Assembly (NCBI RefSeq): GCF_005671395.1
Contig: NZ_CP040428.1
Coordinates: 4,402,001-4,466,000, forward strand
From: Jejubacter calystegiae
Lineage (GTDB): Bacteria > Pseudomonadota > Gammaproteobacteria > Enterobacterales > Enterobacteriaceae
Length of the DNA: 64,000 bases
Direction: 5' to 3'
Below the pieces are notes generated by a model that saw nothing but the letters and a program-made list of their open reading frames with translations, had not been told where the DNA came from and did not search any database. Below are positions 40,484 through 63,878 of this stretch, in pieces; the stretch's first letter is position 1, and the number at the start of each line of letters is the position of its first letter. Made by a program: the position numbers and the translations under genes.

Positions 40484-40824
40484 AAGGCCACCAGGATAAC
40501 CAGAGTCAGCATAACCCCGACTGACAGACCGGAGCTCAGCCAGAGCAACGCTTTCGGAAATGGCAGGGCGGCATCATGCCGCATTGCACGCTCATTTGCC
40601 GCCCAACGACGGTAAGCGTAATACGACAGGCCAGCGGCCGTCAGGCCAGGAAGTGTCACCAGTACACTGCGAAACAACAGCGGTGTCAGATCGGGCGTCA
40701 GTTGGTCTATCCCGATGGCGGCAGCCATAAACGCCAGCGCAGTTCGGATCCATGCCAGGAATGTACGTTCATTCGCCAGCGTAAAGCGATAATCCGGCGA
40801 CTTTCCCTGTTTCCTCCACGTCAT
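40480..40824 (-). CDS. yidH: DUF202 inner-membrane protein YidH
   Basis: The 114-residue three-helix membrane protein has DYRFTLANERTFLAWIRTAL, the YidH signature. Function unknown. It overlaps the regulator gene at its start and yidG at its end by four bases each, so the genes are translationally coupled. Confidence 0.9.
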   Translation of the reverse strand: MTWRKQGKSPDYRFTLANERTFLAWIRTALAFMAAAIGIDQLTPDLTPLLFRSVLVTLPGLTAAGLSYYAYRRWAANERAMRHDAALPFPKALLWLSSGLSVGVMLTLVILVAL

Positions 40825-41546: not shown

Positions 41547-41568
41547 AGCAAAAACTGTCCTTAACCTG

Positions 41569-41595
41569 GTACACCCAGTCGTAGCCGGGGTGTAC
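41569..41595 (-). promoter_or_regulatory. Intercistronic hairpin between sulfatase and gntR-type gene
   Basis: GTACACCC (41569-41576) and GGGTGTAC (41588-41595) are exact reverse complements with an 11-base loop in the 53-base gap. It may set different mRNA levels for the upstream and downstream genes or be an operator. Confidence 0.5.
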
Positions 41596-41599
41596 TACA

Positions 41600-43345: not shown

Positions 43346-43377
43346 ACTTTGTCTCCGTTATTCCGGTTAATACTGAC

Positions 43378-44796
43378 TCAGACCACCACCGTTTTTTTAC
43401 CATAACCGCGGATCTTTCCGGTGGCATAAGTCAGTACAAAAGCGGCCAGGCACCCAACAAGCCAGGCAAGGATATACTGCAGGTATTTTCCGTCTGCAAT
43501 AAGCGGAAGCGCTGATAACCCGGCAGCCCCAACTCCATTAGTCGTGACGCCCAGCAGCACAATCATCATTCCGCCAAAACCAGCGCCAATAGAGCCTGTA
43601 ATAAAGGCAAAACCTGCGGGAATGTTAACCCCGAAGATAGTGGGCTCACCCACCGCAAGAATGGATGTCGGAATAGCTCCCCGGGCGATTTTCTTCATCA
43701 CAGGATCGCGGGTCAGTAACAGTACAGCGGTCGCGGCCCCAACCATCCCGGCGTTAGACATAATCTGAATGGCAAATAATGGCGCATGCCCGGTAACGTT
43801 GATCATTTCCAGATGTATCGGAAACAGACCATGGTGCAGACCCAGTGAGATCAGAAACGGGAATAAAGCTGCCAGTACAAAACCTGCGGCAACTCCGCCA
43901 GTGGTCAGCAGTCCATTCATAGCGTGTAGAATGGCGTCTGACAGAATTCCTGCAACCGGCATAATAGCGAAAAGTAATATTGCAGCCATGATGGTCAGTA
44001 CAATAGTTGGCGTCATCACCACGTCCAGAACGTCGGGAATGAAGCGGCGCACCTGTTTCTCAAGCCAGCACATTAGCCAGACCGCAAAGATGACACCGAT
44101 CAATCCTCCCTGCCCGGGGAGTAATCCCAGTTGAGGCAACTGAGGGGCGATAGTAACGGCTCCCAGAAGCCCGCCCATTACCAGTGTCCCATCAAATTCT
44201 TTGGCTGAAGTCACCCCGGTATAGATAGCCAGAAAACTGAACAGCGCTTTCGACACCAGCCCGAGAAACTCACTGATACCTAACAGGTGGCGTTGTTCCA
44301 GCACCACCTGTGCTGGTGATAAATCCCCAACAGCCGCTACCTGATGGGTCAGCGCAAAAGAAGCCGCAGAATTAACCAGGACATTATTGATACCCATCAA
44401 AATCCCGGCGGCAATCAACGGTGGCAGAATAGGTACAAATATATTGGCGATATGCTTCAGGACTTTTTTGACGGGAGTTTGCTTTTTGGCCTTCTCTCGC
44501 GCCATTTTGGCTTTCTGCTCAACGTCACTGACAGAAGTGTCAACGGCGGAGTCTTTCATCAACTCATTGATAAGAGAGGCCACTTTCGATGACTTTCCGG
44601 GACCGACAATGACCTGCAGGGTATCATCCTCAACCACGCCTAAAACGCCATCAATCGCTTTCAGTGCCTGCATATCGACTTTCGAGATATCGGCAATCGT
44701 CATACGCACACGCGTCATACAGTTCGTTACGTGGAGCAGATTTCCCGATCCACCGCAGTGCTTCACAATAGTGTCAGCAACAAGGTTATTGTTCAT
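43378..44796 (-). CDS. PTS permease EIIBC (glucose/sucrose superfamily)
   Basis: The 472-residue protein has an N-terminal EIIB domain with the phosphorylated cysteine in LLHVTNCMTRVRMTIADI, a linker, and an EIIC membrane domain (VFPI-type start NIFVPILPPLIAAGILMGIN; AVGEPTIFGVNIPAGFAFIT). No EIIA domain is attached, so EIIA must come from elsewhere, e.g. Crr. It likely imports and phosphorylates a (sulfated) amino sugar or disaccharide. The ATG at 44796 follows AGGACATCCGA; a GTG at 44823 is an alternative. First gene of the sulfatase operon. Confidence 0.92.
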   Translation of the reverse strand: MNNNLVADTIVKHCGGSGNLLHVTNCMTRVRMTIADISKVDMQALKAIDGVLGVVEDDTLQVIVGPGKSSKVASLINELMKDSAVDTSVSDVEQKAKMAREKAKKQTPVKKVLKHIANIFVPILPPLIAAGILMGINNVLVNSAASFALTHQVAAVGDLSPAQVVLEQRHLLGISEFLGLVSKALFSFLAIYTGVTSAKEFDGTLVMGGLLGAVTIAPQLPQLGLLPGQGGLIGVIFAVWLMCWLEKQVRRFIPDVLDVVMTPTIVLTIMAAILLFAIMPVAGILSDAILHAMNGLLTTGGVAAGFVLAALFPFLISLGLHHGLFPIHLEMINVTGHAPLFAIQIMSNAGMVGAATAVLLLTRDPVMKKIARGAIPTSILAVGEPTIFGVNIPAGFAFITGSIGAGFGGMMIVLLGVTTNGVGAAGLSALPLIADGKYLQYILAWLVGCLAAFVLTYATGKIRGYGKKTVVV

Positions 44797-44823
44797 TCGG
44801 ATGTCCTGTGTTGTTATCTCCAC

Positions 44824-48657: not shown

Positions 48658-49172
48658 ACTGTAAGCCTTATCAGCATGCCTGTGTGCAGTTATCATCATT
48701 CATTAACTACGTTCTAACAGGCAATTAACCAAAAGAGGGATTTATTAAATTAATAAACAAATAACGCCTGACTATCCCTGCCTGTACGCCTGTTAATTAA
48801 AAAAACGCCTTACTCATTAATTACCACAAACAACCACAATACTGAAGATAAAATTCGTTCGGCAATGTCATAATATGCATTAACATTCATACTTACATGA
48901 AATTAAAGACCAGACCCAAAACATTCCAGCAACACTCTTGCATCTTTAAGTCCATATAAATAGACCAGGAGAAGAGTCAGGGTCAGAAGGCCACATTAGC
49001 CTGAAGCACGCCGTTGATCGGTATGTCATACAGGCCTGGCATGAAGACCGGAGCATCAAACCAATGAACCGGTCCCCGGGAAGTAAATGTAGACAAGATT
49101 TTTACGCCGTGCCGGATCAGGGCCATATCGGCAGAGCCCGGCACCCGACAGGAGAATTGCGTGATATTGCCG
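48658..49172. other. Gap between brnQ and the fimbrial operon
   Basis: About 515 bases, AT-rich in the left half, including the brnQ promoter. Just after the adhesin stop, the minus strand has a 47-codon frame (ATG at about 49126; ends VLQANVAF at 48983) that could be the end of a lost gene, but I recognise nothing in it. Confidence 0.4.
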
Positions 49173-50285
49173 CTAATTATAGATAATGTTGAACGTGGCC
49201 ATACTGTCCGCCCGCCCGGCTGACACACCTGAATCTGTCTGGATATACCGGGCCTGGAACTCCATATCCATGGCCTGCCCGGTAGAAGTAGCCTGCGCAA
49301 CGACCGGTAGCGAATCTGGCTGAGCATTCAGGGGTACCCGTTGGCCTGTCGGAACCTGAAGGTTACCGCCATACATAAGGGCGATACCGACTCCACTGGC
49401 GCTTCCTTCCTGCCGGATTAGTGCCAGTGCATCAGGATCCGACGCCGTTGCATTACCAAAAAATCCTACTCTGACGGATGCGTTATTCTCACAGAGAAGA
49501 TGAATCCTGAAATTTTTCGTCTCGCCAGCGTAACTCCCCACACCTTTAAACTCACTGCGACTGACTTTTCCCATATCAACCTGGATCGACGAATCACCGG
49601 AAGTGACCGCACAGCTTCCGTATTTAACCGTAAGGCTCGACAGATAAATCTGTGGCGCCCCCTCAACTTCCCGGGCGTTGTCGGCATTATCACCGACCCG
49701 CATTGAAGCGCTACCGACCAGCATTTGACCTACTGTCGAGGGCTGATTGCCATCATGCAAAGGAGAGCCACTGGACGGAATCTTGAAAAACACCACGTAG
49801 GGCTGCATTCTGAATCCTGTTGCGGATTTCATGTCCGGATTATCGTTCGTCGAACAAAGACTGCGTTGTTTATTACTGGCTTCGGTGGCGCGGTAATCAC
49901 CACTGCAGTATTCAGGCTCCCGGAATCCCAGGGCAAAGCCAAGTCCCTGGGTTCCTTCCATCTGGTATATCGGCGTGCTGACACCGGAAAAAATCGTTGT
50001 CGTCAAACCAGAAGGTTTCGCATTAATCTGAAAGCCGATCTCCTTATAGTTCCAGGAAGTATCAGCCTCATTCTGCTTACTACAGCTAAACACTTGGTTA
50101 TCTGATACAGGCATCTGAGCAGAAACTGGCGTTCCATCACCGGCGCCGGGAAGAAAGTTAACATCATGTACCTGCACAACAAGCTGACTATTACTGCGGC
50201 ACTGTTCCTGGGCGGCCTGAGAGGCACTGCTATACAATACTGCCAGCATGGCCAGTAGATTAAGAATCTTTATCACATTATTCAT
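49173..50285 (-). CDS. Fimbrial tip adhesin
   Basis: The 370-residue protein has a signal peptide (IKILNLLAMLAVLYSSASQA) and, in its second half, a pilin domain ending in the donor-strand-type terminus DSMATFNIIYN, with cysteines YGSCAVTSGD and RIHLLCENNA forming the usual disulfide. The N-terminal half, about 200 residues, would be the receptor-binding lectin-like domain. It is the last gene of the fimbrial operon, 21 bases after the usher stop. Receptor unknown. Confidence 0.88.
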   Translation of the reverse strand: MNNVIKILNLLAMLAVLYSSASQAAQEQCRSNSQLVVQVHDVNFLPGAGDGTPVSAQMPVSDNQVFSCSKQNEADTSWNYKEIGFQINAKPSGLTTTIFSGVSTPIYQMEGTQGLGFALGFREPEYCSGDYRATEASNKQRSLCSTNDNPDMKSATGFRMQPYVVFFKIPSSGSPLHDGNQPSTVGQMLVGSASMRVGDNADNAREVEGAPQIYLSSLTVKYGSCAVTSGDSSIQVDMGKVSRSEFKGVGSYAGETKNFRIHLLCENNASVRVGFFGNATASDPDALALIRQEGSASGVGIALMYGGNLQVPTGQRVPLNAQPDSLPVVAQATSTGQAMDMEFQARYIQTDSGVSAGRADSMATFNIIYN

Positions 50286-50306
50286 TGTATGAACCTGTCG
50301 GGAGAA

Positions 50307-52835
50307 TTACAGACACTCTGCCTCTGTCGTTTTTACCGCCGCTTTCTGGTCCAGGATGGCTCGAATATCGAAGTTGGCCTTACAGGCTACACTGCCGTTT
50401 TTGTCACGCCACTGTACATGAATGCCGCCCTGTTCGGGGACGCCGCTTAAGTAAAGCAGGCCTTTGTCTGCCACGACGGCATCAGTATGATTTCCTGCTC
50501 CGGTAAGGGAGGCTGTAGCACCGAAAGGGACATCCTGCCCGTGATAGCGCAGAGTAAACAGCACCCTATGCCCCAGGTGAGTGGCGAAATCAGCCAGTGT
50601 CACGGCCCCACTATCCGGCACCACGTGTTGCTCTCCCAGCTCAACATCAATATCGCTGCCTAACGTTTCCGTATCCAGTTCAATGGCATTTTTTCGGTAA
50701 GCAGTCAGTGATGGCACGATCGCATACCCCCGGCTGTCGGTAATGACATGTGAGGCATTGCGGACTTCCACGTTTGCCGCCCCGGGAACTCGAACCAGCG
50801 CAAAAGCATCCCCCAGCGGCTGACTTAACGTAATGCCATATGGATGAGCCACTATTCCCCCTGCAAGCCCATAGGTCAGGCGTTTGCTGTATTTATCCTG
50901 ACTGTATCCCGCACTGACATCGCCCTTACTGCCGTGATAGTCCAGTCCCATCCCAAAGTTGGTGTTGCTGCCTTCGCTGTCATGGCCAAGAAGTACGTTA
51001 TAATTCATACTGTTATCATCAGATAACGCGCCATACAACGTCGCCTGCTGCGACGTTTTCTTACCCGGTGCGATATTCAGGCTGTAATTAACGGCAAGCG
51101 TGCTGTCTGGTTGCCAAAGGCTGAAGGGAATATTGATATTAAAGGTGACATTGCGATCGGCGCGGCCATAACGCGATGAATCTATGTAATAGTACCCGAC
51201 GCCCCATGAGATGCTTTTATAGTTTCCATAATAGCCCATGTGGACCGTACGCTCCTGACCCGGAACGCGCCAGTAATCCTGAAGATAAGCGGAAACGCTC
51301 AAACTGCCGAAAGAGCCCATTGACTGAGAAACGGCCAGCTCTGAACGGCTACGGCGCCGGGTATCCTGCAGACTGTCTCTCTGATTCGCTTCATCAAAAG
51401 TGTAGAAACTCTGCGAAGAGTAACGGTAGCTGGCGAGGCTGAAAGAAGTACCTGCATCAGCAAAATCTTTCTGATACTGGACGCGCACAGATGAACCACG
51501 AGTACGACGGTTTCCCGGTGTAATGGCGCTGGCCCAGGTGGCATCTATGCCCAGCGAACCGAACTCACCAAATCCTCTTCCGAGCCCCAGCGCAACGGCA
51601 CGATAATCTGAAGCCAGTTGTACTCCACCGTACAATGTTAAATCCAGAGGCATGCCATAAGACAGCGTCGACTGGACAAATAATGGTGTACGCACATCAT
51701 CGTTACCGGCATAGTGATAGCGCCCGACATTAATGCTGTATCTTACTCCCCCCCTGCGCAGCATAAAGGGAACAGCGGAATAAGGCTGGGTAAATTTACG
51801 TACGGTACCATTGCTTTCCTGGATGGACACTTCCAGATCGCCGCTTTGTGCCGTGGGAAAAAGATCCTTTATTTCAAAAGCTCCGGGCGCAACATACGTT
51901 TCATAGATCACATAACCATGTTGGAATATCGTCACACGGGCGTTAGTGTGTGCAACACCCCGAATGACAGGAGCAAATCCACGTTGACTTTCCGGTAACA
52001 TATTATCGTCAGACGACAGCTGAATCCCCCGATAATGAATGCTGTCGAAGATATCACCGTCAGTATAGGAATCGCCCATCCTGAGTTTACTGTTCAGCTG
52101 TCGAATATCCCGCTGAAGCCAGGTGCTTTGCGAATCCCAGTGCCCTGACTTATCGTAACGCCAGGTACTGATATTACGCAGACGCCAGGCGCCAATGTTC
52201 ATGCCATTACGCAAATTCAGATAATCAGAATGTAACTCTGTACCCTGAGCTCGAATACTGGAGCCACTCAGGCTGTAGTTAATAAATGCCGCCGGTAATC
52301 CGTCATCCCACAGAGAAGGATCAACATAACCATGCAATCGGGTTTTCATTGCAGCCTGAGGAATACTGATATCCAGACGCTGCTGTGAAAAATCGAAACG
52401 GGCAGTGGCATCCGGAATAAAATCACCCAACCGGGTTATCGTTTCCCCATCACGCAACTTCTTAAACGACGAAAAAGCGCGGATATTAACGCCCATATCC
52501 GCCAGTTGACGTTGTGTAAGAACAGGCACCAGCCCTGCCTGGTCCGCAACGAAGTCGATGTCTCTTTCATCAATCAGTCGTTGATTAAGAAATATACTGA
52601 CCTTATAAGTACCAGGCTGCTGTCCCCCCTCGCGTGAAAAATAACTGAGATCCACCTCACTCTGTCGCTGCGAAGAGAGTTCCAGAGCGGCAGGGTCAAA
52701 ATAGTCGGTTGCCAGTACCATACGCGGCTGCCATATGAATAATAACAAACCAGGAGTACCGATAACCCATGAGGGTAAATAAAAGAAATAAGGACGACGT
52801 CTTCCCTGACGGTGTTTTTGTTTAAACATCATCAC
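50307..52835 (-). CDS. Fimbrial outer-membrane usher (FimD/PapC family)
   Basis: The 842-residue usher has the N-terminal chaperone-binding domain (DYFDPAALELSSQRQSEVDL), the 24-strand barrel with plug (AFSSFKKLRDGETITRLGDF; QRGFAPVIRGVAHTNARVTI, the family signature), and C-terminal domains (YHGQDVPFGATASLTGAGNH) ending with a cysteine pair region (CKANFDI, EAECL). It assembles and secretes the fimbria. Placed between chaperone and adhesin genes, and of normal length. Confidence 0.95.
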   Translation of the reverse strand: MMMFKQKHRQGRRRPYFFYLPSWVIGTPGLLLFIWQPRMVLATDYFDPAALELSSQRQSEVDLSYFSREGGQQPGTYKVSIFLNQRLIDERDIDFVADQAGLVPVLTQRQLADMGVNIRAFSSFKKLRDGETITRLGDFIPDATARFDFSQQRLDISIPQAAMKTRLHGYVDPSLWDDGLPAAFINYSLSGSSIRAQGTELHSDYLNLRNGMNIGAWRLRNISTWRYDKSGHWDSQSTWLQRDIRQLNSKLRMGDSYTDGDIFDSIHYRGIQLSSDDNMLPESQRGFAPVIRGVAHTNARVTIFQHGYVIYETYVAPGAFEIKDLFPTAQSGDLEVSIQESNGTVRKFTQPYSAVPFMLRRGGVRYSINVGRYHYAGNDDVRTPLFVQSTLSYGMPLDLTLYGGVQLASDYRAVALGLGRGFGEFGSLGIDATWASAITPGNRRTRGSSVRVQYQKDFADAGTSFSLASYRYSSQSFYTFDEANQRDSLQDTRRRSRSELAVSQSMGSFGSLSVSAYLQDYWRVPGQERTVHMGYYGNYKSISWGVGYYYIDSSRYGRADRNVTFNINIPFSLWQPDSTLAVNYSLNIAPGKKTSQQATLYGALSDDNSMNYNVLLGHDSEGSNTNFGMGLDYHGSKGDVSAGYSQDKYSKRLTYGLAGGIVAHPYGITLSQPLGDAFALVRVPGAANVEVRNASHVITDSRGYAIVPSLTAYRKNAIELDTETLGSDIDVELGEQHVVPDSGAVTLADFATHLGHRVLFTLRYHGQDVPFGATASLTGAGNHTDAVVADKGLLYLSGVPEQGGIHVQWRDKNGSVACKANFDIRAILDQKAAVKTTEAECL

Positions 52836-52879
52836 TGTACTTATATTTTAAGAAAGCTGAATCAGGCGGACATAGCGGG

Positions 52880-53566
52880 TTATATGACCTGCCTGGCTAC
52901 CTCTGTGACGCCACCAAAATCATTAATTGCCTGCCAGGAAACCGTGCTACCGCCGCTTAGCCCCCACTGACTATCACCTTTTGGAGGTATCATTCCTGGA
53001 TTCTTTATCTCATGCCCACCGATACTCACTTTATAAAAGGAGACAAAATAAGGGGTGGGATTATGGGCAATCAACTGGTTCCCCTGGCGGCGGAAAGTCA
53101 CTTTTTTATAAGCCTCTAACGGATTGCCATCCAGCCCTGACGGGCGATAGAAGAGCTTGAATTTTGACTTAATGTTAACCTGTAGCTGGTTGCCGCCATC
53201 AGGATTACTGGGCGCAATAGACTTAATATCCAGCCAGAATACAGACTCTCGATCTTCAGGTAATGGGGCGCCGGTATAACTAATCCGCAACACGCTGGAT
53301 TTTTCCGGATCCAGGCGAAAGAGAGGTGGCGTGACGATAAAAGGCACTGGCCGTTTATCCCCGGATACCGCACTTTCCAGCCAGCTCTGAATGAGATAGG
53401 GTGCGGATGAGTCCTGATTATTGATCGAAATGGAAGCTTCCTTTTTTCCTTCCTGATAAATAACGCGAGTCCCCCCCATAACCACACCAGCGCGTGAAAA
53501 GGGACTCAGTAACAGCAATATAGCGACCGACAGTACAGTGCTGATTTTTGATGAGAATATTTTCAT
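52880..53566 (-). CDS. Periplasmic fimbrial chaperone (PapD/FimC family)
   Basis: The 228-residue protein has a signal peptide ending SRAG and the two immunoglobulin-like domains of pilus chaperones: GTRVIYQEGKKEASISINNQ with the conserved Arg, and IKSKFKLFYRPSGLDGNPLE with the conserved Lys that anchors the pilin carboxyl end. It folds pilins by donor-strand complementation. It follows the pilin gene by 56 bases. Confidence 0.95.
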   Translation of the reverse strand: MKIFSSKISTVLSVAILLLLSPFSRAGVVMGGTRVIYQEGKKEASISINNQDSSAPYLIQSWLESAVSGDKRPVPFIVTPPLFRLDPEKSSVLRISYTGAPLPEDRESVFWLDIKSIAPSNPDGGNQLQVNIKSKFKLFYRPSGLDGNPLEAYKKVTFRRQGNQLIAHNPTPYFVSFYKVSIGGHEIKNPGMIPPKGDSQWGLSGGSTVSWQAINDFGGVTEVARQVI

Positions 53567-53622
53567 AATAAGGATTCCGGCATCAAAAGGAAGGTACTGG
53601 CGGGATATTCCCCGCCAGAAAA

Positions 53623-54213
53623 TCAGTTATAAACCATCACGAAGTTAGATACGGCATTCGCGTGACCTACGCTAATAGGTTGTCCGTCAGCACGATAGTC
53701 TGCGTAGAAAGTCAGGGTGGCTTCTCCCCCATCTTCACTCTGAGTGACATTCATGGCTTCAGAGACGGAGCCAATCTTGATTGATGAGCTCCGATCTTCT
53801 TCATACAGCTTCACTCCGACACCGGTCGCGCCGCCGGTAACAGCCAGCAGAGAACCGTCTGCAGCATCTTTTTCACCATCGAAAAGTACCGCAACAGTGC
53901 TCACGGATTCCGGGCAGTTTTCCACTCTAATCTGGAAAGGTGTCTGAGTGGACTCTTTGTTATCCGGGAAATAGGATGCCGCCCATTTACCTAAATCTAC
54001 TGTCTGACTTTTTGACCCTGGAGTAATATCACAAGACACATCCGTAATTTCACCGATAAAATTTACAACTCCCCCGGTTCCCTGAGTACCAGCTTCAGAG
54101 CCTGGATTAACATTCATAGGAGAAATTTCAGACGCCACGGAGAAAGTCGTGCCAGAGATCATCAGGCTACTGCCTACAAATACAGCAAGAAGCGTTTTTT
54201 TTACGTTGAACAT
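53623..54213 (-). CDS. Major fimbrial subunit
   Basis: The 196-residue pilin has a signal peptide (VKKTLLAVFVGSSLMISGTT), the Cys61-Cys100 disulfide pair (DVSCDITPGS, RVENCPESV) and the type 1 pilin C-terminus NAVSNFVMVYN with penultimate Tyr. The N-terminal extension GTGGVVNFIGEITD supplies the donor strand. First gene of the pilin-chaperone-usher-adhesin operon; no fimbrial recombinase or regulator lies nearby. Confidence 0.93.
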   Translation of the reverse strand: MFNVKKTLLAVFVGSSLMISGTTFSVASEISPMNVNPGSEAGTQGTGGVVNFIGEITDVSCDITPGSKSQTVDLGKWAASYFPDNKESTQTPFQIRVENCPESVSTVAVLFDGEKDAADGSLLAVTGGATGVGVKLYEEDRSSSIKIGSVSEAMNVTQSEDGGEATLTFYADYRADGQPISVGHANAVSNFVMVYN

Positions 54214-55725
54214 ATAATTTCCAATATAGTGAGGGAAGCCCTCTCTACAACAATTACAAGACAGTCCCTTAACCTAATAATCCATTATCAAACATCCCTG
54301 GGTTTTCCATAAACAATAAGGAAGCCTTTTAACCACAAGGTCAAAATACGGGTGAACAAAGCTTCCTGAAGCAGAATATCGGCACCGGGATAATATATAT
54401 GCGTTAAAACTTAACCGAACGTTCCAAAACCCCAAAACCATGCAACAAATAAATAACAACTTACCATTAAAAACAATCACGCACAAAAGATGTGCGTGAG
54501 ATAAATCTTATACTATAAGAATAAAGATAACAATCCCGGTAACATACCCGCAAGGAAAACACCAAAGTCATATAAACCACATAAAAATAAAAAAACAGAC
54601 TTTAATGGAGATGGAAAAAGAAGAACCCAAAACAAAAACTCAAATAAAACAAAAAGTGCAATATCATTCACTACACCCCATGGAAGGAACCCATATATCA
54701 ATAAGAGACAGGTTTCTTTCATTGGCCGAGGATGACCTCTTCTCACTTCACAAACAGAAAACCCCGCAAACAAATATCATTCATAACAGCAAACCATAAA
54801 GCAACATTTTTAACATTAAATTGTCATTAAACCATTTTCCTCACGAAACAGTCTCTTATATAACTTCATCACTATTCTTTCTGTCGTCCTTATTCTCAGG
54901 CGATCGTTCTGTTTGCTCCGGCTATATCTGGCTAAACTCAGTGAGACAAAGCATACCTGAACAACCATACAACAAATGGTTCACAAGATTTTCTGTGCCG
55001 GTCAATATCTGCAAGCAACTAAAGGTTCAAAAAAATTAAGGAAAATGACCAATACAATAACCAGCGCCTATCCTTCAATACGCCACCATGCCGCTCAGCC
55101 ATAGCATCCGACCGTACCCGTCACAGCCACGCGGCAGCTTAACCCCGCATGCGGGGTAAGCCAGCGATCGTCATGGCTTCCAACGAACATTAGCGTTTGT
55201 ATACTCAATTGATGTGGATTTATTCAGGTGATAACGGATACCCGAGGTTCATATGCAGCCGGGAAGTTTGCAAACATTAGAGAGCCTGAGAAATTCAAAG
55301 AAAGTTATCTACCGCGTAGGGCGGCCCCCACCACGAATTTATAATCACTGACTAAACCATCGACCAGATCAATACAGAGCGTTACCCTGAAACGCACGCC
55401 CACTAACCATCTCCTGCCTGCTGGCGCAACGCTGTATCCCGTGCCACGTCAGTGGTACCGTAGACACGTCCCGGCCGTCAAACCCTACGGCAGGAACCTT
55501 TCAGATCCTCAGTTCTCACTGAATCGCCTGACAGCGTGCTCCCCGGAGCTCAGGAAAACTGCAACCAGCCACTAAAATCATGTAGCTGCTGTTGAACTCC
55601 CCTGTTCATAGTAAGGGGTTATAGTGAAACGATGTCTATAAATCATACTGTTAAGGCGGTCTATATGTTGCAGTACATTCTTTTCCATTGATCTTTCCCG
55701 GAGGCTTAAAACCACTTCAACCCGA
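54214..55725. other. 1.5-kb low-G+C gap upstream of the fimbrial operon
   Basis: No intact gene is seen. The first 800 bases are very AT-rich and must contain the fimbrial promoter; short frames there lack ribosome sites or family resemblance. ACCCCGCATGCGGGGT (55142-55157) is a perfect 16-bp palindrome. From about 55400 to 55600 lies a decayed piece of an integrative-element gene (annotated separately). Confidence 0.5.
55415..55585 (-). pseudogene. Decayed copy of an integrating conjugative element gene (TIGR03757-like)
   Basis: The stretch GGTACCGTAGAC...CGGCAGGAACCTTTC at 55466-55510 and ATCGCCTGACAGCGTGCTCC at 55523-55542 match 61159-61203 and 61528-61547 in the same orientation, with about 300 bases of the middle missing. 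On the minus strand it retains the C-terminus YGTTDVARDTALRQQAG, which the copy at 61.1 kb lacks. It is a remnant only. Confidence 0.65.
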
Positions 55726-56493
55726 CTATTTTTCGATTACACCATCCACAATCACAAGCGCTTTTCCCTGCGAACAACGTTCTACCCTCCCGCGCACGCC
55801 GTACACCTGCGCAAAGCTTTCTGCGCTAATCACCGTTTGCGGGTCTCCGCTGTCAATAAGCCTACCCTCTTTCAGCATGATGACCTGGGTAGCATGCCGC
55901 AGCGCGATATTGATATCATGAACCACCACCAGCGTGACCATATCGCGTATCCGTGTTTCGCGGGACACCACGTCCATCACGTGAAACTGATAGTTGAGAT
56001 CCAGTGCGCTCAGCGGCTCATCAAGCAATAGCAGAGAAGGGCGGCAAATAAGCGACTGCGCGAGTCCCACCAGCTGTTTCTGACCACCGGACAGTCTATC
56101 GAGATAGTTCATTGCCAGATGGGCGATGCCTAACTCTTCGAGCAGAGCTATCGCCCGCGCCTGGTTTCGCTCTGCGCCAGAGGCGCGCTGGGCGACAATC
56201 ACCGACTCCAGCACCTGCAGATGCACGCCCTGCGGCAGCGACTGCGGCAGAAATACGACTTTTTCAGCCCGTCGGGCAAGCGGCAGCGATAACAGATTCA
56301 CCTCGTCCAGCCAGGCTTCGCCACTGGCGCGATTTAACCCTGCCAGCGCGCGCAGTAGCGTTGATTTACCGCAGCCGTTGGGGCCTAACAGTACAGTGAC
56401 CTCGCCGCGTGACAACGTAGAAATCGTCAGATTATCAATAATCTTTCGTTTGCCGTAACCGGCGCACAGTGCATTAATCGACAGCCCGCTCAT
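55726..56493 (-). CDS. Metal-chelate ABC transporter ATP-binding protein (FecE/FepC type)
   Basis: The 255-residue ATPase has Walker A LLGPNGCGKSTLLRAL, signature LSGGQKQLVGLAQ and Walker B LLLLDEPLSALDLN, as in siderophore/B12 importers. It energises the permease encoded just upstream, whose stop overlaps its start by four bases. Last gene of the receptor-binding protein-permease-ATPase operon. Confidence 0.95.
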   Translation of the reverse strand: MSGLSINALCAGYGKRKIIDNLTISTLSRGEVTVLLGPNGCGKSTLLRALAGLNRASGEAWLDEVNLLSLPLARRAEKVVFLPQSLPQGVHLQVLESVIVAQRASGAERNQARAIALLEELGIAHLAMNYLDRLSGGQKQLVGLAQSLICRPSLLLLDEPLSALDLNYQFHVMDVVSRETRIRDMVTLVVVHDINIALRHATQVIMLKEGRLIDSGDPQTVISAESFAQVYGVRGRVERCSQGKALVIVDGVIEK

Positions 56494-57548
56494 GACATAT
56501 TCCCCCGATGGCGCATCACAGTGCTCAAAAAGAACGGCACACCTACCAGCGAGGTAACGATCCCTACCGGTAAAATTACGCCGGGGATAATGTTCTTCGA
56601 TGCCACTGAAGCCAGCGACAGTACCAACCCACCAGTGAGTATGCTTCCGGGCAAATAAAAGCGATGATCTTCCCCCAGCAGCAGGCGGGCAATATGCGGT
56701 GCGACCAGACCGATAAAGCCAACTGGCCCGACAAAAGCAACAGAAAGGGCTGCCAGCAGGCTGATGCGCAGCAGTGATCCCAGGCGTAAACGACGAACAT
56801 CAATACCAAAGCTCATCGCCCGCTCTTCACCAAGACGTAGCGCGGTAAGCTGCCAGGCACGACGCAGTGACCAGGGTAAAACCATCGCCATCGCCGCAGT
56901 CAGCACCGCCAGTTTCTCCCATGAGGCGCGGGCAAGGCTTCCCATCGTCCAGAACACCAGGCCCTGCAAGGTATCTTCATCGGCGACAAACTGCATGATG
57001 GAAACCAGCGCGTTGAAGGTAAAGACCAGCGCAATGCCAAACAGCAAAATGCCCGACGTCGGCATGCATGTCCAGCGGGTCAGGCTGTCGAGCAACAGAG
57101 CGGAAAAAAGCGCAAAAAGAAAAGCATTAGCCGGAATAAACCCGCTTTCCGGGACGCCGGGAATACCGATACCCAGCACAATCGCCAGCGCCGCACCAAA
57201 GGCCGCCGCTGAGGAAACGCCGAGTGTAAACGGGCTGGCCAGTGGGTTGTTCAGGATGGTTTGCATCTCAGCTCCGGCTAACCCCAGCGCCATTCCTACC
57301 AGTAATGCCATCAGTGCATAGGGTAAACGGATATCCCAAACGATAACCCGTATGCCAGTAGCTGCCTGGGCCGGATGCAGCAAGGTTTGCACCAGTGAAT
57401 GTATAGGGAGCCCCGAAGGACCGAGCGTAAAATCAAGCAGCAGCGAAGCGATAATAGTGATAAAAATAACCGTCAGTATCGCCAGCCGCTGGCGATACAG
57501 CTGTCGGTAGTGATTTTCTACCGACAACGTACTTTCCATAACAGTCAT
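56490..57548 (-). CDS. Metal-chelate ABC transporter permease (FecCD/BtuC family)
   Basis: The 352-residue protein has about ten membrane segments and the FecCD signatures GMALGLAGAEMQTILNNPLA, SPFTLGVSSAAAFGAALAI and FIGLVAPHIARLLLGEDHR. It forms a homodimeric inner-membrane channel, as only one permease gene is present. It is 17 bases downstream of the binding-protein gene. Confidence 0.95.
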   Translation of the reverse strand: MTVMESTLSVENHYRQLYRQRLAILTVIFITIIASLLLDFTLGPSGLPIHSLVQTLLHPAQAATGIRVIVWDIRLPYALMALLVGMALGLAGAEMQTILNNPLASPFTLGVSSAAAFGAALAIVLGIGIPGVPESGFIPANAFLFALFSALLLDSLTRWTCMPTSGILLFGIALVFTFNALVSIMQFVADEDTLQGLVFWTMGSLARASWEKLAVLTAAMAMVLPWSLRRAWQLTALRLGEERAMSFGIDVRRLRLGSLLRISLLAALSVAFVGPVGFIGLVAPHIARLLLGEDHRFYLPGSILTGGLVLSLASVASKNIIPGVILPVGIVTSLVGVPFFLSTVMRHRGNMS

Positions 57549-57565
57549 GGTTTTCTCACTCTCGG

Positions 57566-58558
57566 TTAGCGTGGTGGATTGAGCACATCACCCACCTGCG
57601 CATCACTTAACGTCAGGCCAAAGAACTGTTGATAAAACTCACGTGTCTCTTTACGCATATCCACATCGGCAAAGCGGCCGGGATAGAGCATTTTCGCCAG
57701 CCACAGAAATTGCAGCGCCTCTTCACTGGTTTCGCGACACCACCAGAACATCCCTTTCGGATTGACGTACACGTGATGATGAATGACTGCGTCCACGCTT
57801 GCCCACTGCGGAGAGCTCAAAATGGCATCAGCATCGCGCTTGTTCATCGCGACAATAACCGCCGGGTTGGCTGTGACAATTTTCTCCAGCGCCACTTCAC
57901 CTGAGCGGTTTTGTTTATTCCCACCAAACCAGTTTTCGGCAATATTTTTCCCACCAGCCAGATCGATCCAGTCCTGGTTGAGCGATGGCCTGCCAGTGGT
58001 GGTCAGCGGATTTCCCATACTGTGATAGAGCGACACGCGCTGTGAAGCGGGAAGATCTTTGAGGCGTCCGGTCACCAGGGCAATGTTGCGGTCAAAATAG
58101 CGTTGATAGTCGAGCGCTTTTCGCTGCGCATCTGGCCCCAGCAACACCGCTGTTCGCTGTACGCGTTGGGTCAACGCCCGCAGAGAGTTCGCTTCGAACG
58201 CCAGCACCTGCACTCCTGCCTGTTTCAGTAAATCCTGCCGGGGTACCACCATATTTTGCGGCACAAAAAGCATGTCGACCCCAAGCGCGATAATCTGTTC
58301 AGGGTTGATTTCATGTCCGCTGTTTACGCTTACCACCGCCACATCCTCAATGCGCGGCAGACTCTGGCGAAAAAGGGGGATCTTTTTGGCAACCATCGAC
58401 GTTCCGACGATGTTATCGCCATACCCCAACATGGCGATGATGGTGTTTTGCGCCGGCCATGGCGAAGCGATACGCACCTCCTTGTGCCTATTTTCTGCAT
58501 GCAGGCTGGCCGCCAGCAGTAACGCCAGTAGCGATAATAAACGAGAAAATTTCATCAT
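57566..58558 (-). CDS. Periplasmic metal-chelate-binding protein (FecB/BtuF family)
   Basis: The 330-residue protein has a signal peptide (SRLLSLLALLLAASLHA) and the two-lobed Peripla_BP_2 fold (EVRIASPWPAQNTIIAMLGY; ALGVDMLFVPQNM). VIHHHVYVNPKGMFWWCRE near the end is histidine- and tryptophan-rich; similar segments occur in proteins proposed to bind nickel or other metal chelates, so iron-siderophore is not certain. It follows the receptor gene by 7 bases. Confidence 0.9.
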   Translation of the reverse strand: MMKFSRLLSLLALLLAASLHAENRHKEVRIASPWPAQNTIIAMLGYGDNIVGTSMVAKKIPLFRQSLPRIEDVAVVSVNSGHEINPEQIIALGVDMLFVPQNMVVPRQDLLKQAGVQVLAFEANSLRALTQRVQRTAVLLGPDAQRKALDYQRYFDRNIALVTGRLKDLPASQRVSLYHSMGNPLTTTGRPSLNQDWIDLAGGKNIAENWFGGNKQNRSGEVALEKIVTANPAVIVAMNKRDADAILSSPQWASVDAVIHHHVYVNPKGMFWWCRETSEEALQFLWLAKMLYPGRFADVDMRKETREFYQQFFGLTLSDAQVGDVLNPPR

Positions 58559-58565
58559 TTATCCG

Positions 58566-60731
58566 TTAGAAATCAAAGGTGACGGAAGCACGCACTTCAC
58601 GACCGCTGCCGATAAACGCACTCGGGGAACCGTTATCGCCATCGGTACCCGACGGGAAGATTGAAGCCCAGTAATGTTTATCAAACACGTTGTTTACCAC
58701 CACGCGGAAGGTGGCTGGTACGTTGCTCACTTTGGTTGTGTAACGCATTCCCAGATCCCAGGTGGTGTAGCTGCTGGCATAAGACGTATTCGTGTCATTT
58801 GCCGCGCGTTTTCCCGTATAGTGGACGTTGGCACTATAGACCCATTCCGGCATGGACGGCAGGCTGTATTCCGCCAGCAGGTTAACCTGCACTTTCGGCA
58901 CGCCCACAACCTGTTTATTGCTGGTTGATGAATTCGCCGTATCTTTCAGTTTCGGGTTGAGGAAGGTAACGCCGCTGTAAATATTCAGCCCCTGCCAGAC
59001 ATTACCGGCAGCGGTTAATTCGAGGCCGTTGTTAACCTGATTCCCCTGCTCTTTATAGACGTTATCCGTATCGAGATAGGCAAACGGGCGCTCCAGGCGG
59101 AACAGCGCCGCGCCCAGGTTCATCCCGCCGACGTCGGATTTCAGCCCCACTTCATACTGTTTGCTACGATACGGATCGAGCGTTTGACCAGCATTTTTTA
59201 CGTTGTCGTCCATAGGGGCAGTGCCGCCCTGCTCCAACGAATCGGCGTAGCTGACATAGGCCATCGTGTCAGGGGTGATTTTGTACATCAGCGCCACGTT
59301 CGGGCTTAACCCATTTTCATCAACCTGACTGGTTTGATTGCCGTGCTTGTCGTAATTTTTAGTCTGCAGCCAGCTCTGGCTCAGGTAGAACATTGCCGAC
59401 CATTGTGGCGAAAAAGTCACCGTATCGCCAAGCGTAATGCTCTGCTGAGTATTTACGCTGGAGCGATAGCGCGGCCCGCCGGTGCGGATTTTGCCATCGC
59501 CCTGCTCATCTATCGCATCCGGGTGATACATATTCGTGGTACCCCAGCTATAGCTGGAAGCCGCCCCCTTCGCACTATAAAGCGACCAGACATAACCCGT
59601 GGTTGAAAGCGACAGATCATGGCCGACAGAGCCGGTATCAATATGGCCATTCAGCCCGGCAGTATTGCTCAACACGCGGAAACGACCGGCAGCGGTGGAA
59701 TCCTTCATCGAGCGCGATATATCGCCCTGATTATTGAGTATTTTACTGGAAACACTGCGCATCGCGCGGTCGGCCTGCTGCCAGCCCACGCCAGCGTTCA
59801 TAGACCAGTCGTCGTTAAAGTAGTGGATCAGGCGGGTGCTGATGGTATCGGTAGTCAGGTCGTTACCCGCTGTACTGAGCGCCAGATTTTTATCCTTCGG
59901 ATTCGGCGCAGACAGCAGTTTGACGTTCGGGCCATAGCTAAAGCTGCCGACATAGCCTTTCTGGATAAATTCATAATGGCTGGCGTCGAGCTGTAGCTGA
60001 GTTCCCGGCTGAATATTCCAGTCGAGCGCAACTGAAACGAGTTTGCGACGTAGCGTGCTACCATCAACATTGCCTTCGCCTTCCTGATCGAGCAGGTTCA
60101 CGCGATAGCCAAACCGTTTGTCCTCATCAAAATGACCGCCCAGATCGGCATGGCCGGTAAACGCACTGCGGCTTTGATAGCCCAGCGTCACTTTGCGCAG
60201 CGTCTCTTCGGTTGGACGCTTCGCCACGAAGTTAAACTGCCCGGCCGGGCTCGCCGGGCCGTACAACGCACCGGTCAGGCTATTAAGCACATCCATACGT
60301 TCAAGCATTTCCACTGGAAACGCGGTGGTCGAAACGATGTTCAGCCCGTCAAGACGACTGTTAGCCACCACGCTTCCCTGCATACCACGGCTTTGTGGAC
60401 GCCCTACATCCATCCCGCCACGCGCCTGCATTTGCGTACTGGGAGAGTATTTCAGCATTTCGCTAACGCTTTGCGCCTGCTGATTTTCAATCATTTCTCT
60501 GGTGACGGTGGTGCTGGAATAAGGCGTTTCGACCCAGGATTTCGTGCCAAGCGGACCGACATCAATATCATTAGTTTTGAACCCTGCACCAGCAGCAGAA
60601 TCCATGGTGTCAGTGGCGGTATTACCAGTGACAATCATTTCATCTTCAGAAGTGGACGCGGCATACGTATGGAGAGATGCCAAAGACACTAATACTGGCA
60701 AAAGCGTAGCGAAAGATATTTGAGTTTTCAT
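58566..60731 (-). CDS. TonB-dependent siderophore/metal-chelate receptor
   Basis: The 721-residue outer-membrane receptor has a signal peptide, a TonB-box-like segment (EDEMIVTGNTATDT), a plug (PYSSTTVTREMIENQQAQSV; PQSRGMQGSVVANSRLDGLN) and a 22-strand barrel ending VRASVTFDF with the terminal Phe. It is close to siderophore receptors of the FhuA/FoxA type. First gene of the four-gene import operon. I could not identify a convincing Fur box upstream; TGAATATAA near 60805 and TTATAATTCA near 60819 form an imperfect inverted repeat. Confidence 0.93.
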   Translation of the reverse strand: MKTQISFATLLPVLVSLASLHTYAASTSEDEMIVTGNTATDTMDSAAGAGFKTNDIDVGPLGTKSWVETPYSSTTVTREMIENQQAQSVSEMLKYSPSTQMQARGGMDVGRPQSRGMQGSVVANSRLDGLNIVSTTAFPVEMLERMDVLNSLTGALYGPASPAGQFNFVAKRPTEETLRKVTLGYQSRSAFTGHADLGGHFDEDKRFGYRVNLLDQEGEGNVDGSTLRRKLVSVALDWNIQPGTQLQLDASHYEFIQKGYVGSFSYGPNVKLLSAPNPKDKNLALSTAGNDLTTDTISTRLIHYFNDDWSMNAGVGWQQADRAMRSVSSKILNNQGDISRSMKDSTAAGRFRVLSNTAGLNGHIDTGSVGHDLSLSTTGYVWSLYSAKGAASSYSWGTTNMYHPDAIDEQGDGKIRTGGPRYRSSVNTQQSITLGDTVTFSPQWSAMFYLSQSWLQTKNYDKHGNQTSQVDENGLSPNVALMYKITPDTMAYVSYADSLEQGGTAPMDDNVKNAGQTLDPYRSKQYEVGLKSDVGGMNLGAALFRLERPFAYLDTDNVYKEQGNQVNNGLELTAAGNVWQGLNIYSGVTFLNPKLKDTANSSTSNKQVVGVPKVQVNLLAEYSLPSMPEWVYSANVHYTGKRAANDTNTSYASSYTTWDLGMRYTTKVSNVPATFRVVVNNVFDKHYWASIFPSGTDGDNGSPSAFIGSGREVRASVTFDF

Positions 60732-60889
60732 GTATCACATGATCGCTATATAAAAAATTATATTACGATCAATATGCAGGCAAAATCATGATCGAGATCA
60801 CACATGAATATAAGCTATTTATAATTCAGACTATCACAGGCATTACAGGAGCATATCCGAATGGCCACCTTCCCGTGGTGATTTCGCTA

Positions 60890-61165
60890 TTATGGATCCA
60901 GTTCGCTTCCACGTACGGCGATATGGCGCGTACGGAACCGCTATTCGCGCTTTCATGGCTGAAAATCAGCACTGTTGATGCTGTCAGGAAACAACTCGAA
61001 CGGAGCTGGAATGTCGTTGACAGCATTATGACTCGCGCGGTTAAGCGAGATCTTGCACGAATAAAAAAGCCTTTAGCAGCCCGGTATATGAATGTGGACG
61101 AAGTCGCCTTTAAGAAAGGACATCGTTATATAACAGCGATCTCCGAGCGTGACGGGCGGGTACCG
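60890..61165 (+). pseudogene. ISL3-family transposase fragment
   Basis: The frame shows the middle of an ISL3-type transposase: ARTEPLFALSWLKISTVDAV, RSWNVVDSIMTRAVKRDLAR and NVDEVAFKKGHRYITAISER, which includes the first catalytic Asp region (VDE). N-terminal zinc finger and the C-terminal half are missing. It ends abruptly at 61159-61165 in the integrative-element gene, marking a recombination or transposition joint. Confidence 0.75.
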
Positions 61166-61506
61166 TAGACCACATCCCGATCGTCAAACACCACGGCAGG
61201 AACCTTTCGGATACCCAGTTCCCAGGCGCGGCCCACCTGGCGGTATGAGGTAATCAGTTGTTGCTGTCGCTGCTGCCACTGCGGGGATGTCATAACCTGT
61301 CTGGCCTGTGCCGCCGCCAGCTCAGAATCGGCCGATAGTTGGCCAAACATCTCTGTCTGCAACCGCTCCGGGCCATCCAGCAGCACAACCGGGATATCCG
61401 GTGGAAGATTTTCAGGAAGATGCTGGCTGTCGGTATAAAGCACCGAGCCCGCCAGCACCGTCACCGGCAGAAGCGCCGGCAGAAGGATGAAGTTACGTCG
61501 TTTCAT
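61156..61506 (-). pseudogene. Integrating conjugative element protein, TIGR03757 family, 3' truncated
   Basis: The reading frame begins MKRRNFILLPALLPVTVLAG, a signal peptide, and continues as a thioredoxin-like TIGR03757 protein (PVVLLDGPERLQTEMFGQLS, RAWELGIRKVPAVVFDDRDV, VYGT). Family members belong to the transfer apparatus of integrative conjugative elements. After VYGT the native C-terminus (TDVA..., still present at 55.4 kb) is replaced by 9 residues from the ISL3 fragment. No other transfer genes are in the window. Confidence 0.78.
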
Positions 61507-61699
61507 TGGGAGACTCCGTCAGAATGTATCGCCTGACAGCGTGCTCCCCGGCTTTCAGGAAAGCTGCAATAAACTAAAAATCCGTGGCTAAAAATTAATT
61601 CGGCAAGGCTGTCGCAGTTGATATCGCCCCGATGCCCGCTCAATCTGGAGGGCATCGGTCATCATCGGGGAGCAGGTCGATGTGATGAAGTTAATTCCG

Positions 61700-61738: not shown

Positions 61739-62323
61739 TTAGTTGGATGTAACCTGGCTAATAAGCACGCCTTTAACACTTTTATTTTCAACATAATACT
61801 GAAGACAATTCATCTGAATAAAATCACCATAGCTTTGAGTATCAGTACAGTATTGAATAGTATTGCTACCTTGCTCGTCTTCGGACATTAATGCGAAATT
61901 TTCTGATGATGCCCCCAGTAAAGAAATCCCCTTAACCCTGACGCTTAAATCATTGCTATAAGGAGAACAACCTTTTTGCTGTCCATCTCTGGCAATCGCT
62001 ATAGAGGTTAAATCTCCTTGCCCCATCTCATTATCAGAGATAAACCAGTAGTTAACATCTCTGGATGCAAGGCAAAGCCATGACGCCCTATCGTCCTGGT
62101 TAACCACTACGTCTGTGGCTTTTGCAATATCTGCAAGACGGCTAAATTCCATTACAAAGATGTCACTGCTAATAATCACATCGGGCACTAAATTTTTATT
62201 GGCATCGTGGCTAATAACAGATGAATCATCGTGGTAATAGCTGGCTCCAAAACCCTCCATCTGCATAGCCATCGCAACAGGAGAGACCATAGCAGCAAGC
62301 ACAAAAAATAGGAGACGCTTCAT
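61739..62323 (-). CDS. Exported protein, candidate immunity protein of a decayed T6SS effector
   Basis: The 194-residue protein has a clear signal peptide (MKRLLFFVLAAMVSPVAMA) and a periplasmic remainder with paired cysteines (RASWLCLASR, QKGCSPYS, IQYCTDTQ, QMNCLQYY). No family recognised. Its ATG overlaps as ATGA the stop of a DUF2778 effector remnant, exactly as the intact effector-partner pair upstream overlaps. By that position and its periplasmic location it is probably the immunity protein of the lost effector, kept as an orphan. Inference, not proof. Confidence 0.7.
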   Translation of the reverse strand: MKRLLFFVLAAMVSPVAMAMQMEGFGASYYHDDSSVISHDANKNLVPDVIISSDIFVMEFSRLADIAKATDVVVNQDDRASWLCLASRDVNYWFISDNEMGQGDLTSIAIARDGQQKGCSPYSNDLSVRVKGISLLGASSENFALMSEDEQGSNTIQYCTDTQSYGDFIQMNCLQYYVENKSVKGVLISQVTSN

Positions 62324-62484
62324 TTCACTCTCAACTCCCTGTCACCGCTTGCCCAGATGCTCTTTCTGACGCTGAGAGGAGCGATCATACAACCTTCGGA
62401 TGAGTCCAGTGGATGCTTCTCGTTCTCACCATGAATCCACCCTTCCTGTGAATCAGAATAAACAATATTATCATCCAGATAGTA
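62320..62484 (-). pseudogene. Remnant of a second Hcp/Tlde1-like (DUF2778) effector locus
   Basis: On the minus strand 54 codons remain. YYLDDNIVYSDSQEG matches the end of the intact Hcp (KYLDGNIIHSDSWKG), then WIHGENEKHPLDSSEGCMIA matches the catalytic end of the intact effector (FRIHGEKRPP...ASEGCIIM), followed by KSIWASGDRELRVK. A deletion has fused the Hcp tail to the effector tail; the start and most of both genes are gone. The active-site His and Cys are still visible. Confidence 0.8.
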
Positions 62485-62503
62485 CGCGAACTTTTAGCAT
62501 GTC

Positions 62504-62530
62504 TGAAGAAAACCCGGCACCAGCCCGGGC
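62504..62530 (-). terminator. Rho-independent terminator after the T6SS cargo genes
   Basis: On the minus strand CCCGG-GCTGGTG-CCGGG is followed by TTTTCTTC. It lies 18 bases after the stop at 62548. Confidence 0.75.
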
Positions 62531-62547
62531 TTATTCTTGTACCAGGG

Positions 62548-63015
62548 TTACTTCGTTGGGCCCTGTGCCATCTCCAGCCTGTACTCGTCAATAATATACT
62601 GCATTGTTCCGAGACATTCCGCTGCCGCTGGGCCAGCCCTTTTAAGTGTCGGTTCCGCCTTCGCAAAATAGGCCTCAACCTGCATCGGCGTAAAATGGGC
62701 CATAGCGGGTATGCTGCATATCACTGACATGCCGAAACGTTGTTGTAGGCGATCTGTTCTCTTTTCTAGCGGTGTGGTGGCGTTAATGACAGCTACAGGG
62801 TCTTTAATCAACGCCATGCTGATAGCGGTAGTCAGTTCTTCCACTTGTTTAGCGTCAAGGATATCGCCGATACTATCAATCTTCTCTGGCAGCGCCTGGA
62901 TCGTTTTCTGGTCTGCCTGTTCTACCTGTCGAAGGTAAGCATTCCATTCGCTTGACGGCGCCATACAAGATGTCGATACAATACAGGCGACCAGAACAAC
63001 GGCACGCCCGATCAC
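62548..63015 (-). CDS. Putative immunity protein for the Tlde1-like effector
   Basis: The 155-residue protein has an N-terminal hydrophobic export signal (IGRAVVLVACIVSTSCM); Cys17 could be a lipidation site, though the residue at -3 is Ser rather than Leu. The rest is helical (ILDAKQVEELTTAISMALIK, FTPMQVEAYFAKAEPTLKRA). It overlaps the effector gene by four bases (ATGA), the usual arrangement for effector and immunity genes, and would protect the cell's own periplasm from peptidoglycan modification. No sequence match is claimed. Confidence 0.75.
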   Translation of the reverse strand: MIGRAVVLVACIVSTSCMAPSSEWNAYLRQVEQADQKTIQALPEKIDSIGDILDAKQVEELTTAISMALIKDPVAVINATTPLEKRTDRLQQRFGMSVICSIPAMAHFTPMQVEAYFAKAEPTLKRAGPAAAECLGTMQYIIDEYRLEMAQGPTK

Positions 63016-63374
63016 CTGACCACCTCCAGAGTGGTATCTGTTGACTGGATTATTTTTCTGCGAATGTTTGGCCCCATGATTATGCAGCCTTCAGAAGCAA
63101 AACCAGGTACCGCTGGTGGTCTTTTTTCGCCATGAATACGGAACAGGGAACGCCCGAACCCCTCGCCTGAAACCTGAGTCAGGGTGATGGTCATCGGCCC
63201 CTTTGAATTTGTATAGCCACCAATGCGCCATGTTCCGCGAGGAATTGGCCCCATGCCTCTAACGTGCTGGCGGTCAGGGTTGTTTTGATTCGTCAAACTT
63301 CCCGAATAACCTTTACCTATTAATTTACCGTTGTGCCATAACTCGCCAGTACTCTGAGAGTATTTCCATGCCAT
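63012..63374 (-). CDS. T6SS effector, DUF2778 / Tlde1-like L,D-transpeptidase fold
   Basis: The 120-residue protein matches DUF2778 (MAWKYSQSTGELWHNGKLIG; GMGPIPRGTWRIGGYTNSKG). LFRIHGEKRPPAVPGFASEG ending CIIMGP gives the catalytic pair His81 and Cys97 of the L,D-transpeptidase-related effector Tlde1, which damages target-cell peptidoglycan by carboxypeptidase and D-amino-acid exchange activity. No signal peptide, as expected for a T6SS cargo. AGGGAG precedes the ATG. It starts 12 bases after hcp, so Hcp is its probable carrier. Confidence 0.87.
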   Translation of the reverse strand: MAWKYSQSTGELWHNGKLIGKGYSGSLTNQNNPDRQHVRGMGPIPRGTWRIGGYTNSKGPMTITLTQVSGEGFGRSLFRIHGEKRPPAVPGFASEGCIIMGPNIRRKIIQSTDTTLEVVR

Positions 63375-63386
63375 ATGCCACGCTCC

Positions 63387-63878
63387 CTATGCTGCGCTAC
63401 GCCCTTTCCAGGAATCAGAATGGATAATATTACCGTCCAAATATTTCCAGGTGATTTTCTTGTACATCATTTCTAGTACTTCAAGATGTTCCTGGCGTTC
63501 GTAGGTAGGATCTTTAACATCTTCCATAATAGGCACAACACAGGTAATACGGGCGTTCTCAAGAAGCACGTTAAAATATTCCTCTTCCTGTCCGGCATTA
63601 TTAATTCGATAAAATTTAAGCTCTGCTGATTTTAAAAGCTTTCCTGAACTAACGAATTGATAAAGATAGGGGCTGGATGAGTCCAGCGCTTTGGTGAGGA
63701 TAAAAGGCGCATGTTCACGTGTCGCCGTTATCTTGCCGGACAGATCATCCGTAGGAAGTGATACATCGTGAGCCAGCGCAGTTATTTCTATGCTACCTTC
63801 GCGTTGCTGTATTTCTACAGAGCCTTTGACGGGGTTTCCGGCATCGTCCTTTAACCATAAATAAACAGGTATAGCCAT
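63387..63878 (-). CDS. hcp: Type VI secretion tube protein Hcp
   Basis: The 163-residue protein starts MAIPVYLWLKDDAGNPVKGS and has the Hcp features IEITALAHDVSLPTDD, HAPFILTKALDSSSPYLYQF and a C-terminal KITWKYLDGNIIHSDSW. Hcp hexamers build the inner tube of the secretion apparatus and carry small effectors in their lumen. There are no core T6SS genes in the window, so this is an orphan hcp cargo locus served by an apparatus encoded elsewhere. Confidence 0.93.
   Translation of the reverse strand: MAIPVYLWLKDDAGNPVKGSVEIQQREGSIEITALAHDVSLPTDDLSGKITATREHAPFILTKALDSSSPYLYQFVSSGKLLKSAELKFYRINNAGQEEEYFNVLLENARITCVVPIMEDVKDPTYERQEHLEVLEMMYKKITWKYLDGNIIHSDSWKGRSAA

Follow-up and report, generated by a model that had tools for sequence, protein, structure and literature searches.

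The systems closest to the locus studied here are described for molybdate uptake and for mobile elements. Transcription of molB of the Haemophilus influenzae molybdate importer is repressed in a molybdate-dependent manner, the regulator being unknown in that paper (PMC4031551). For Escherichia coli, the ModE consensus is ATCGNTATATA-N6-TATATANCGAT (PMC545781), and a similar one is found in PMC2700814. For integrative and conjugative elements (ICEs) resembling SGI-4, phe-tRNA was reported as the common integration site (PMC6543542). We analysed a 64,000-nucleotide stretch of Jejubacter calystegiae DNA (contig NZ_CP040428.1, positions 4,402,001 to 4,466,000; hereafter the window), in which a four-gene TonB/ATP-binding cassette (ABC) import operon lies between remnants of an SGI-4-like ICE. 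As judged from its sequence, the operon is most likely a ModE-repressed, TonB-dependent, MolABC-like importer of molybdate or tungstate. To the best explanation as a whole, i.e. an ICE wreck, a passenger and a molybdenum/tungsten importer with the history and function proposed below, we assign a probability of roughly 0.7.

A predicted ModE box and the import operon

A predicted ModE box, ATCGCTATATA-AAAAAT-TATATTACGAT, is located at positions 60742-60769 (strand not assigned), 11 bp before the start codon of the receptor gene. It is one position off the published E. coli consensus, and the search pattern was relaxed at this differing position. With the relaxed pattern the box showed 0 mismatches, and none of 100 shuffled sequences matched even when two mismatches were permitted (chance 0.00). 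It is the best box in the 5.18-Mb genome. Other matches of the pattern are situated before genes for modA-type binding proteins, moaA and a molybdopterin oxidoreductase, and some have no clear target. The motif was chosen after inspection of the sequence, and its conservation across genera serves as independent support: 24 of the 26 operon loci, as far away as Providencia and Serratia, have a site close to the receptor gene that agrees at 15-19 of the 20 specified positions, compared with 12-14 of 20 reached by shuffled 20-kb sequences. The two loci without a site (L007 and L048) gave identical match figures with a receptor match that is broken early, and are probably one and the same locus. 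ModE itself is encoded in the genome (126 bits). Thus, the sequence features of a ModE regulon member, a promoter box, its conservation in orthologues and the regulator, are all present. A Fur box above chance was not found, and Fur control was ruled out on these grounds. From the box and its conservation we infer that ModE binds at this site and represses the operon. The ModE box before the operon therefore indicates that molybdenum or tungsten, rather than iron, is probably imported.

All four genes of the operon are located on the minus strand. The TonB-dependent receptor (58566-60731) matches PF00593 and PF07715 and scores 291.9 bits with TIGR01783 (cut-off 223.5). The other genes encode a MolA-like periplasmic binding protein (57566-58558; PF01497; HI_1472/MolA 3psa, 1.5e-16), a FecCD-type permease related to H. 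influenzae HI1471 (MolB) and to HmuU (56490-57548; PF01032, 1e-80; 2nq2, 3.9e-40; 4g1u, 4.9e-49) and an ABC transporter ATPase of the FecE/BtuD type (55726-56493; PF00005; NCBIfam heme/Fe ATPases below cut-off). PF01497 binding protein, FecCD permease and ATPase make up a MolABC-like gene set, and MolA is the second-best solved relative of the binding protein, HI1471 the third of the permease. According to the proposed mechanism, ModE together with molybdate would repress the operon. When molybdenum is scarce, the receptor would take up a molybdate or tungstate complex using TonB energy, the MolA-like protein would ferry the complex across the periplasm and the FecCD/ATPase pair would import it.

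Some observations weigh against this assignment. Heme and B12 importers are just as closely related to the transporter parts, the binding protein has its best solved match in the uncharacterised 4ovk, and the receptor lies above the cut-off of TIGR01783, which is a siderophore-receptor subfamily; because of these relationships homology alone does not fix the substrate. The substrate is probably chelated, which is deduced from the TonB receptor only, while H. influenzae MolBC-A is described as a low-affinity importer of molybdate itself (PMC4031551). The original prediction had described the operon as a metal-chelate system. In kind this is probably correct, although molybdenum or tungsten is indicated by the control element. 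Going by the family names, the operon would simply be an iron-siderophore uptake system, a reading that seems unlikely to us. It would fit the subfamily score of the receptor and one case in E. coli in which the genes are annotated as a TonB-dependent siderophore receptor and an iron ABC permease, but not the conserved ModE box at the receptor gene start, the lack of a Fur box above chance and the presence of MolA among the nearest relatives.

In the same genome, further ModE-like boxes precede genes for a ModA-like protein, two Fec-type binding proteins and a TonB-plug protein. The boxes before the Fec-type and TonB-plug genes are located at 1501-1528 in each of the loci L122, L124 and L126, and that of L124 lies approximately 22 kb to the left of the window. 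These boxes might point to a larger molybdenum/tungsten import regulon. It is slightly more probable than the opposite that Enterobacterales have a ModE-controlled, TonB-dependent and molybdophore-like route for molybdate or tungstate complexes, to which this operon and the further ModE-boxed Fec-type and TonB-plug genes would belong. If chelates of molybdenum or tungsten are indeed imported, iron-uptake readings of the operon would be wrong and outer-membrane molybdenum uptake would gain a concrete candidate. The E. coli homologues of the operon, which is present in about one-sixth of the complete E. coli genomes, bear generic TonB/siderophore-type names; a corrected prediction for a widespread operon is the useful outcome and is directly testable in laboratory E. 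coli. No paper naming a ModE-controlled TonB operon was found in the open literature, most subscription journals and regulon databases being outside the scope of this search, and no priority is claimed.

The operon block, the TIGR03757 remnants and the ICE relic

The operon block (55651-60824) shows 87.7% DNA identity to E. coli CFT073, and at least 80% of it is present in 897 of 5,426 complete E. coli genomes. The operon, or its half with receptor and binding protein, also occurs in Cedecea, Pseudocitrobacter, Klebsiella, Citrobacter, Providencia and Serratia and on a Cronobacter plasmid. There was no TIGR03757 match at the compared operon loci of other bacteria, including E. coli CFT073, the Cronobacter plasmid, Cedecea and Pseudocitrobacter. 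On its 3′ side, the operon is joined to an internal fragment of a Tn3-family transposase gene (tnpA; 55650-55720, minus strand; 90% over 71 bp to tnpA of pKL53-L), which forms the first 70 bases of the block common with E. coli. This junction is identical in E. coli and on a Klebsiella plasmid, and the core common to Cedecea and Pseudocitrobacter begins right after the tnpA fragment, at 55721. Another fragment (55581-55657, strand not assigned) is also found on an E. coli IncF plasmid, where it is unannotated (84% over 77 bp). Because the tnpA junction and the operon core recur elsewhere, the operon is, by these comparisons, a separate horizontally moved passenger with transposon debris that travelled independently of this ICE.

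On both sides of the operon are same-strand remnants, 85-89% identical, of one TIGR03757 (DUF1525) ICE gene and its 5′ flank, designated copy A (55401-55564) and copy B (61160-61599). A repeat search of the region 54.5-62.5 kb revealed two pairs in the same orientation, 54 bp at 83% (55465/61171) and 45 bp at 89% (55520/61525). By BLASTN the first pair was lengthened to 55454-55518 versus 61160-61224 (85%), and the E-values of the two pairs, approximately 1e-13 and 1e-9, far exceed chance. The open reading frame of copy B (61126-61506, minus strand) scores 112.1 bits with the TIGR03757 model (curated cut-off 73.2), which places it in this family, and is the sole match in the 5.18-Mb genome; copy A is too short to be scored by the model. 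Repeat search, BLASTN and the TIGR03757 model thus confirm the prediction that both stretches are homologous, lie in the same orientation and derive from one TIGR03757-type gene.

Alignment with SGI-4, the K. michiganensis element and the E. coli ICE identified copy A as a frameshifted pseudogene. It retains the 3′ part of the gene to the stop codon (55401-55518, minus strand; 72% to SGI-4 over 116 bp and 85% to copy B over 66 bp), joined to the 5′ flank (55520-55564, minus strand; 89% to 61525-61569 and 88% to the E. coli ICE) via an internal deletion that leaves 1 bp in place of the 300 bp of copy B. The left stretch had been predicted to span 55466-55542 and to comprise the C-terminus without the middle. 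The stretch is real, but its extent was understated, as it can be aligned to SGI-4 up to the stop codon, and the 5′ flank is kept as well. Retention of TIGR03756 at the left edge was ruled out, since the SGI-4 match ends at the TIGR03757 stop codon. Copy B (minus strand; 77% to SGI-4 over 440 bp) comprises the nearly whole gene and its 5′ flank. As predicted, its end is replaced, the last codons giving way to an internal transposase fragment of the insertion sequence (IS) family ISL3 (ISKox3-like; 60944-61160, plus strand; NF033550; 84% over 217 bp to ISKox3). Both IS ends are missing from this fragment, which rules out a simple ISL3 insertion. Within the common 65 bp, 55 positions are identical between A and B, 53 between B and the best ICEs and 48 between A and the best ICEs. 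The two copies are therefore closer to each other than to other ICEs (55/65 and 40/45 identities), and the counts fit a decayed copy A and a less altered copy B of related origin; 10-17 differences do not allow their split to be dated.

To locate the rest of the element, a 204-kb region surrounding the site was searched with proteins from three related ICEs (those of SGI-4, K. michiganensis and E. coli; parts of elements, not every family), coordinates above 64000 denoting the continuation beyond the window, in L080. Including both TIGR03757 copies, eight collinear minus-strand remnants were found in the gene order of SGI-4, which has a GI-type type IV secretion system (T4SS). The six further remnants are spread between 48.9 kb and a point 5.8 kb beyond the end of the window: a parA-like piece (69774-69467), TIGR03747 (69063-68217), a RAQPRD fragment (approximately 65531-65208) joined to the end of the conjugative ATPase (65214-64444; 88-93% amino acid identity), a conserved ICE protein (64453-64040) and a remnant of the TIGR03755/PFL_4711-position protein (48899-49039). 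The latter match is weak at the protein level (tblastn, 40-78% amino acid identity, E-values of 5e-4 to 9e-4) and reaches 83% over 54 bp at the nucleotide level (E-value 6e-8); the respective gene is next but one after TIGR03757 in SGI-4. The original prediction of an integrative element with decayed flanks therefore holds, the region being the wreck of an SGI-4-like ICE. Against this stands that a left end, an integrase and an attachment site (att) duplicate were not found in the searched region, and that the parA end adjoins leuZ-downstream DNA and not a tRNA-Phe site. Neither a tRNA-Phe piece nor a duplicate of the leuZ end was found. Integration into the 3′ end of leuZ was ruled out by the lack of an att repeat and by the conserved leuZ-downstream DNA. 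Most ICE genes are absent or truncated within the 204 kb compared, and the full set of integrase, relaxase and complete T4SS needed for mobility is not present there. The element is therefore an ICE relic and not an ICE.

Related ICEs carry differing cargo between the conjugative ATPase and TIGR03757 (YobI NTPase and DinQ-like toxins; L088 18391-23405, L078 4110-6384 and L087 25240-26696). This stretch is likely a cargo hotspot of this SGI-4-like ICE family.

How the remnants came to bracket the operon

The two copies had been regarded as complementary, with the operon exactly between them, and their origin was attributed to insertion or duplication of the operon. The operon does lie between the remnants, but only approximately, as the block in common with E. 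coli is bordered by short debris to its left and right. The copies are not complementary; they overlap in both their 3′ and 5′ parts, and because of this overlap a single insertion into one gene cannot explain them. Insertion of the operon into one TIGR03757 gene, or duplication of the gene in the course of the insertion, would make the remnants split halves. Such an origin is consistent with the common orientation of the copies with the operon between them and with the closer similarity of A and B to each other than to other ICEs, A seeming to be the faster-decaying partner. Nevertheless, we regard this origin as quite improbable: given their overlap and a divergence of 11-15%, the copies are neither halves nor the outcome of a recent duplication, unrelated fragments lie between the operon and each copy, the operon is found elsewhere without remnants, and no comparable pair was seen in a protein-domain search of 392 genomes. 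Overlap and divergence also ruled out a target-site duplication. TIGR03757 was matched in 55 of the 392 family genomes, and none of the other 54 has a TIGR03757 pair flanking cargo in the protein-domain search, which may miss fragments of the small size of copy A. With the same limit, this result speaks against a recurrent cargo-duplication mechanism in the ICE family.

A slightly less than even chance is given to an origin from two ICEs, in a tandem array or after successive integration, where a deletion between them would have spared copy B of one element and copy A of the other, the latter together with the operon, which would have been hotspot cargo upstream of TIGR03757. Immediately upstream of this gene the ICEs differ from one another, with a DinQ-like toxin gene in SGI-4 and K. 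michiganensis and a YobI NTPase gene in E. coli. Relative to copy A the operon occupies this very position, and the divergence of A and B fits two related elements. On the other hand, each of the other ICE remnants occurs only once within the 204 kb that were searched, and no examined ICE carries the operon upstream of TIGR03757. We prefer a history in which two related ICE segments, from successive or tandem ICEs or from an old duplication, would have come to flank the passenger, and in which IS- and transposon-associated deletions and illegitimate recombination would have eroded the remaining ICE; a point against it is that the order of events is undated. The bracketing remnants are products of ordinary ICE decay, and their adjacency to the operon is probably incidental.

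The tyrP-leuZ island and comparison with known systems

The distance between tyrP and leuZ is 36 kb here versus less than 1 kb in E. coli K-12, which was used for comparison as the empty site and where only yecA lies between the two genes; no yecA match was found in the tyrP-leuZ region of J. calystegiae. Besides the ICE remnants and the import operon, the island contains a fimbrial operon, a sulfatase/phosphotransferase system (PTS) cluster and type VI secretion system (T6SS) Hcp/Tlde1-type genes. The four-gene chaperone-usher fimbrial operon (49173-54213), located between copy A and the TIGR03755-position remnant, is another passenger of the wreck. The TIGR03757 and ATPase remnants enclose, at 61739-63878, an Hcp (TssD) gene, a gene for a Tlde1-domain protein and two unassigned open reading frames with signal-like starts, which together look like a T6SS Hcp/effector/immunity cassette. 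The genes at 38847-44823, encoding an anaerobic sulfatase maturase, a sulfatase-like enzyme, a GntR-like regulator and PTS IIBC, are a probable sulfated-sugar utilisation cluster. Near the parA end (L080 2420-4181), inspection by eye only revealed open reading frames resembling a radical SAM/SPASM protein and an adjacent site-2-protease-like membrane protein.

With SGI-4 and SGI-4-like ICEs (PMC6543542), the relic shares order and sequence of parA, TIGR03747, RAQPRD, the conjugative ATPase, TIGR03757 and the TIGR03755-position gene. Unlike SGI-4, it consists of fragments only, has two TIGR03757 remnants and adjoins leuZ instead of phe-tRNA, and the region searched yielded no integrase. The E. 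coli operon (e.g. of CFT073), whose annotation reads TonB receptor and FecCD ABC transporter, has the same four genes, the ModE box and the tnpA junction in common with the operon described here, but it is found at another location and without TIGR03757 remnants of an ICE. H. influenzae MolABC (HI1470-1472), a molybdate importer of the BtuCD/FecCD type, likewise combines a PF01497 binding protein with a FecCD permease and an ATPase, and its components HI1471 and HI1472 belong to the nearest solved relatives. In contrast to MolABC, the operon of J. calystegiae is headed by a TonB receptor gene that is preceded by a ModE box.

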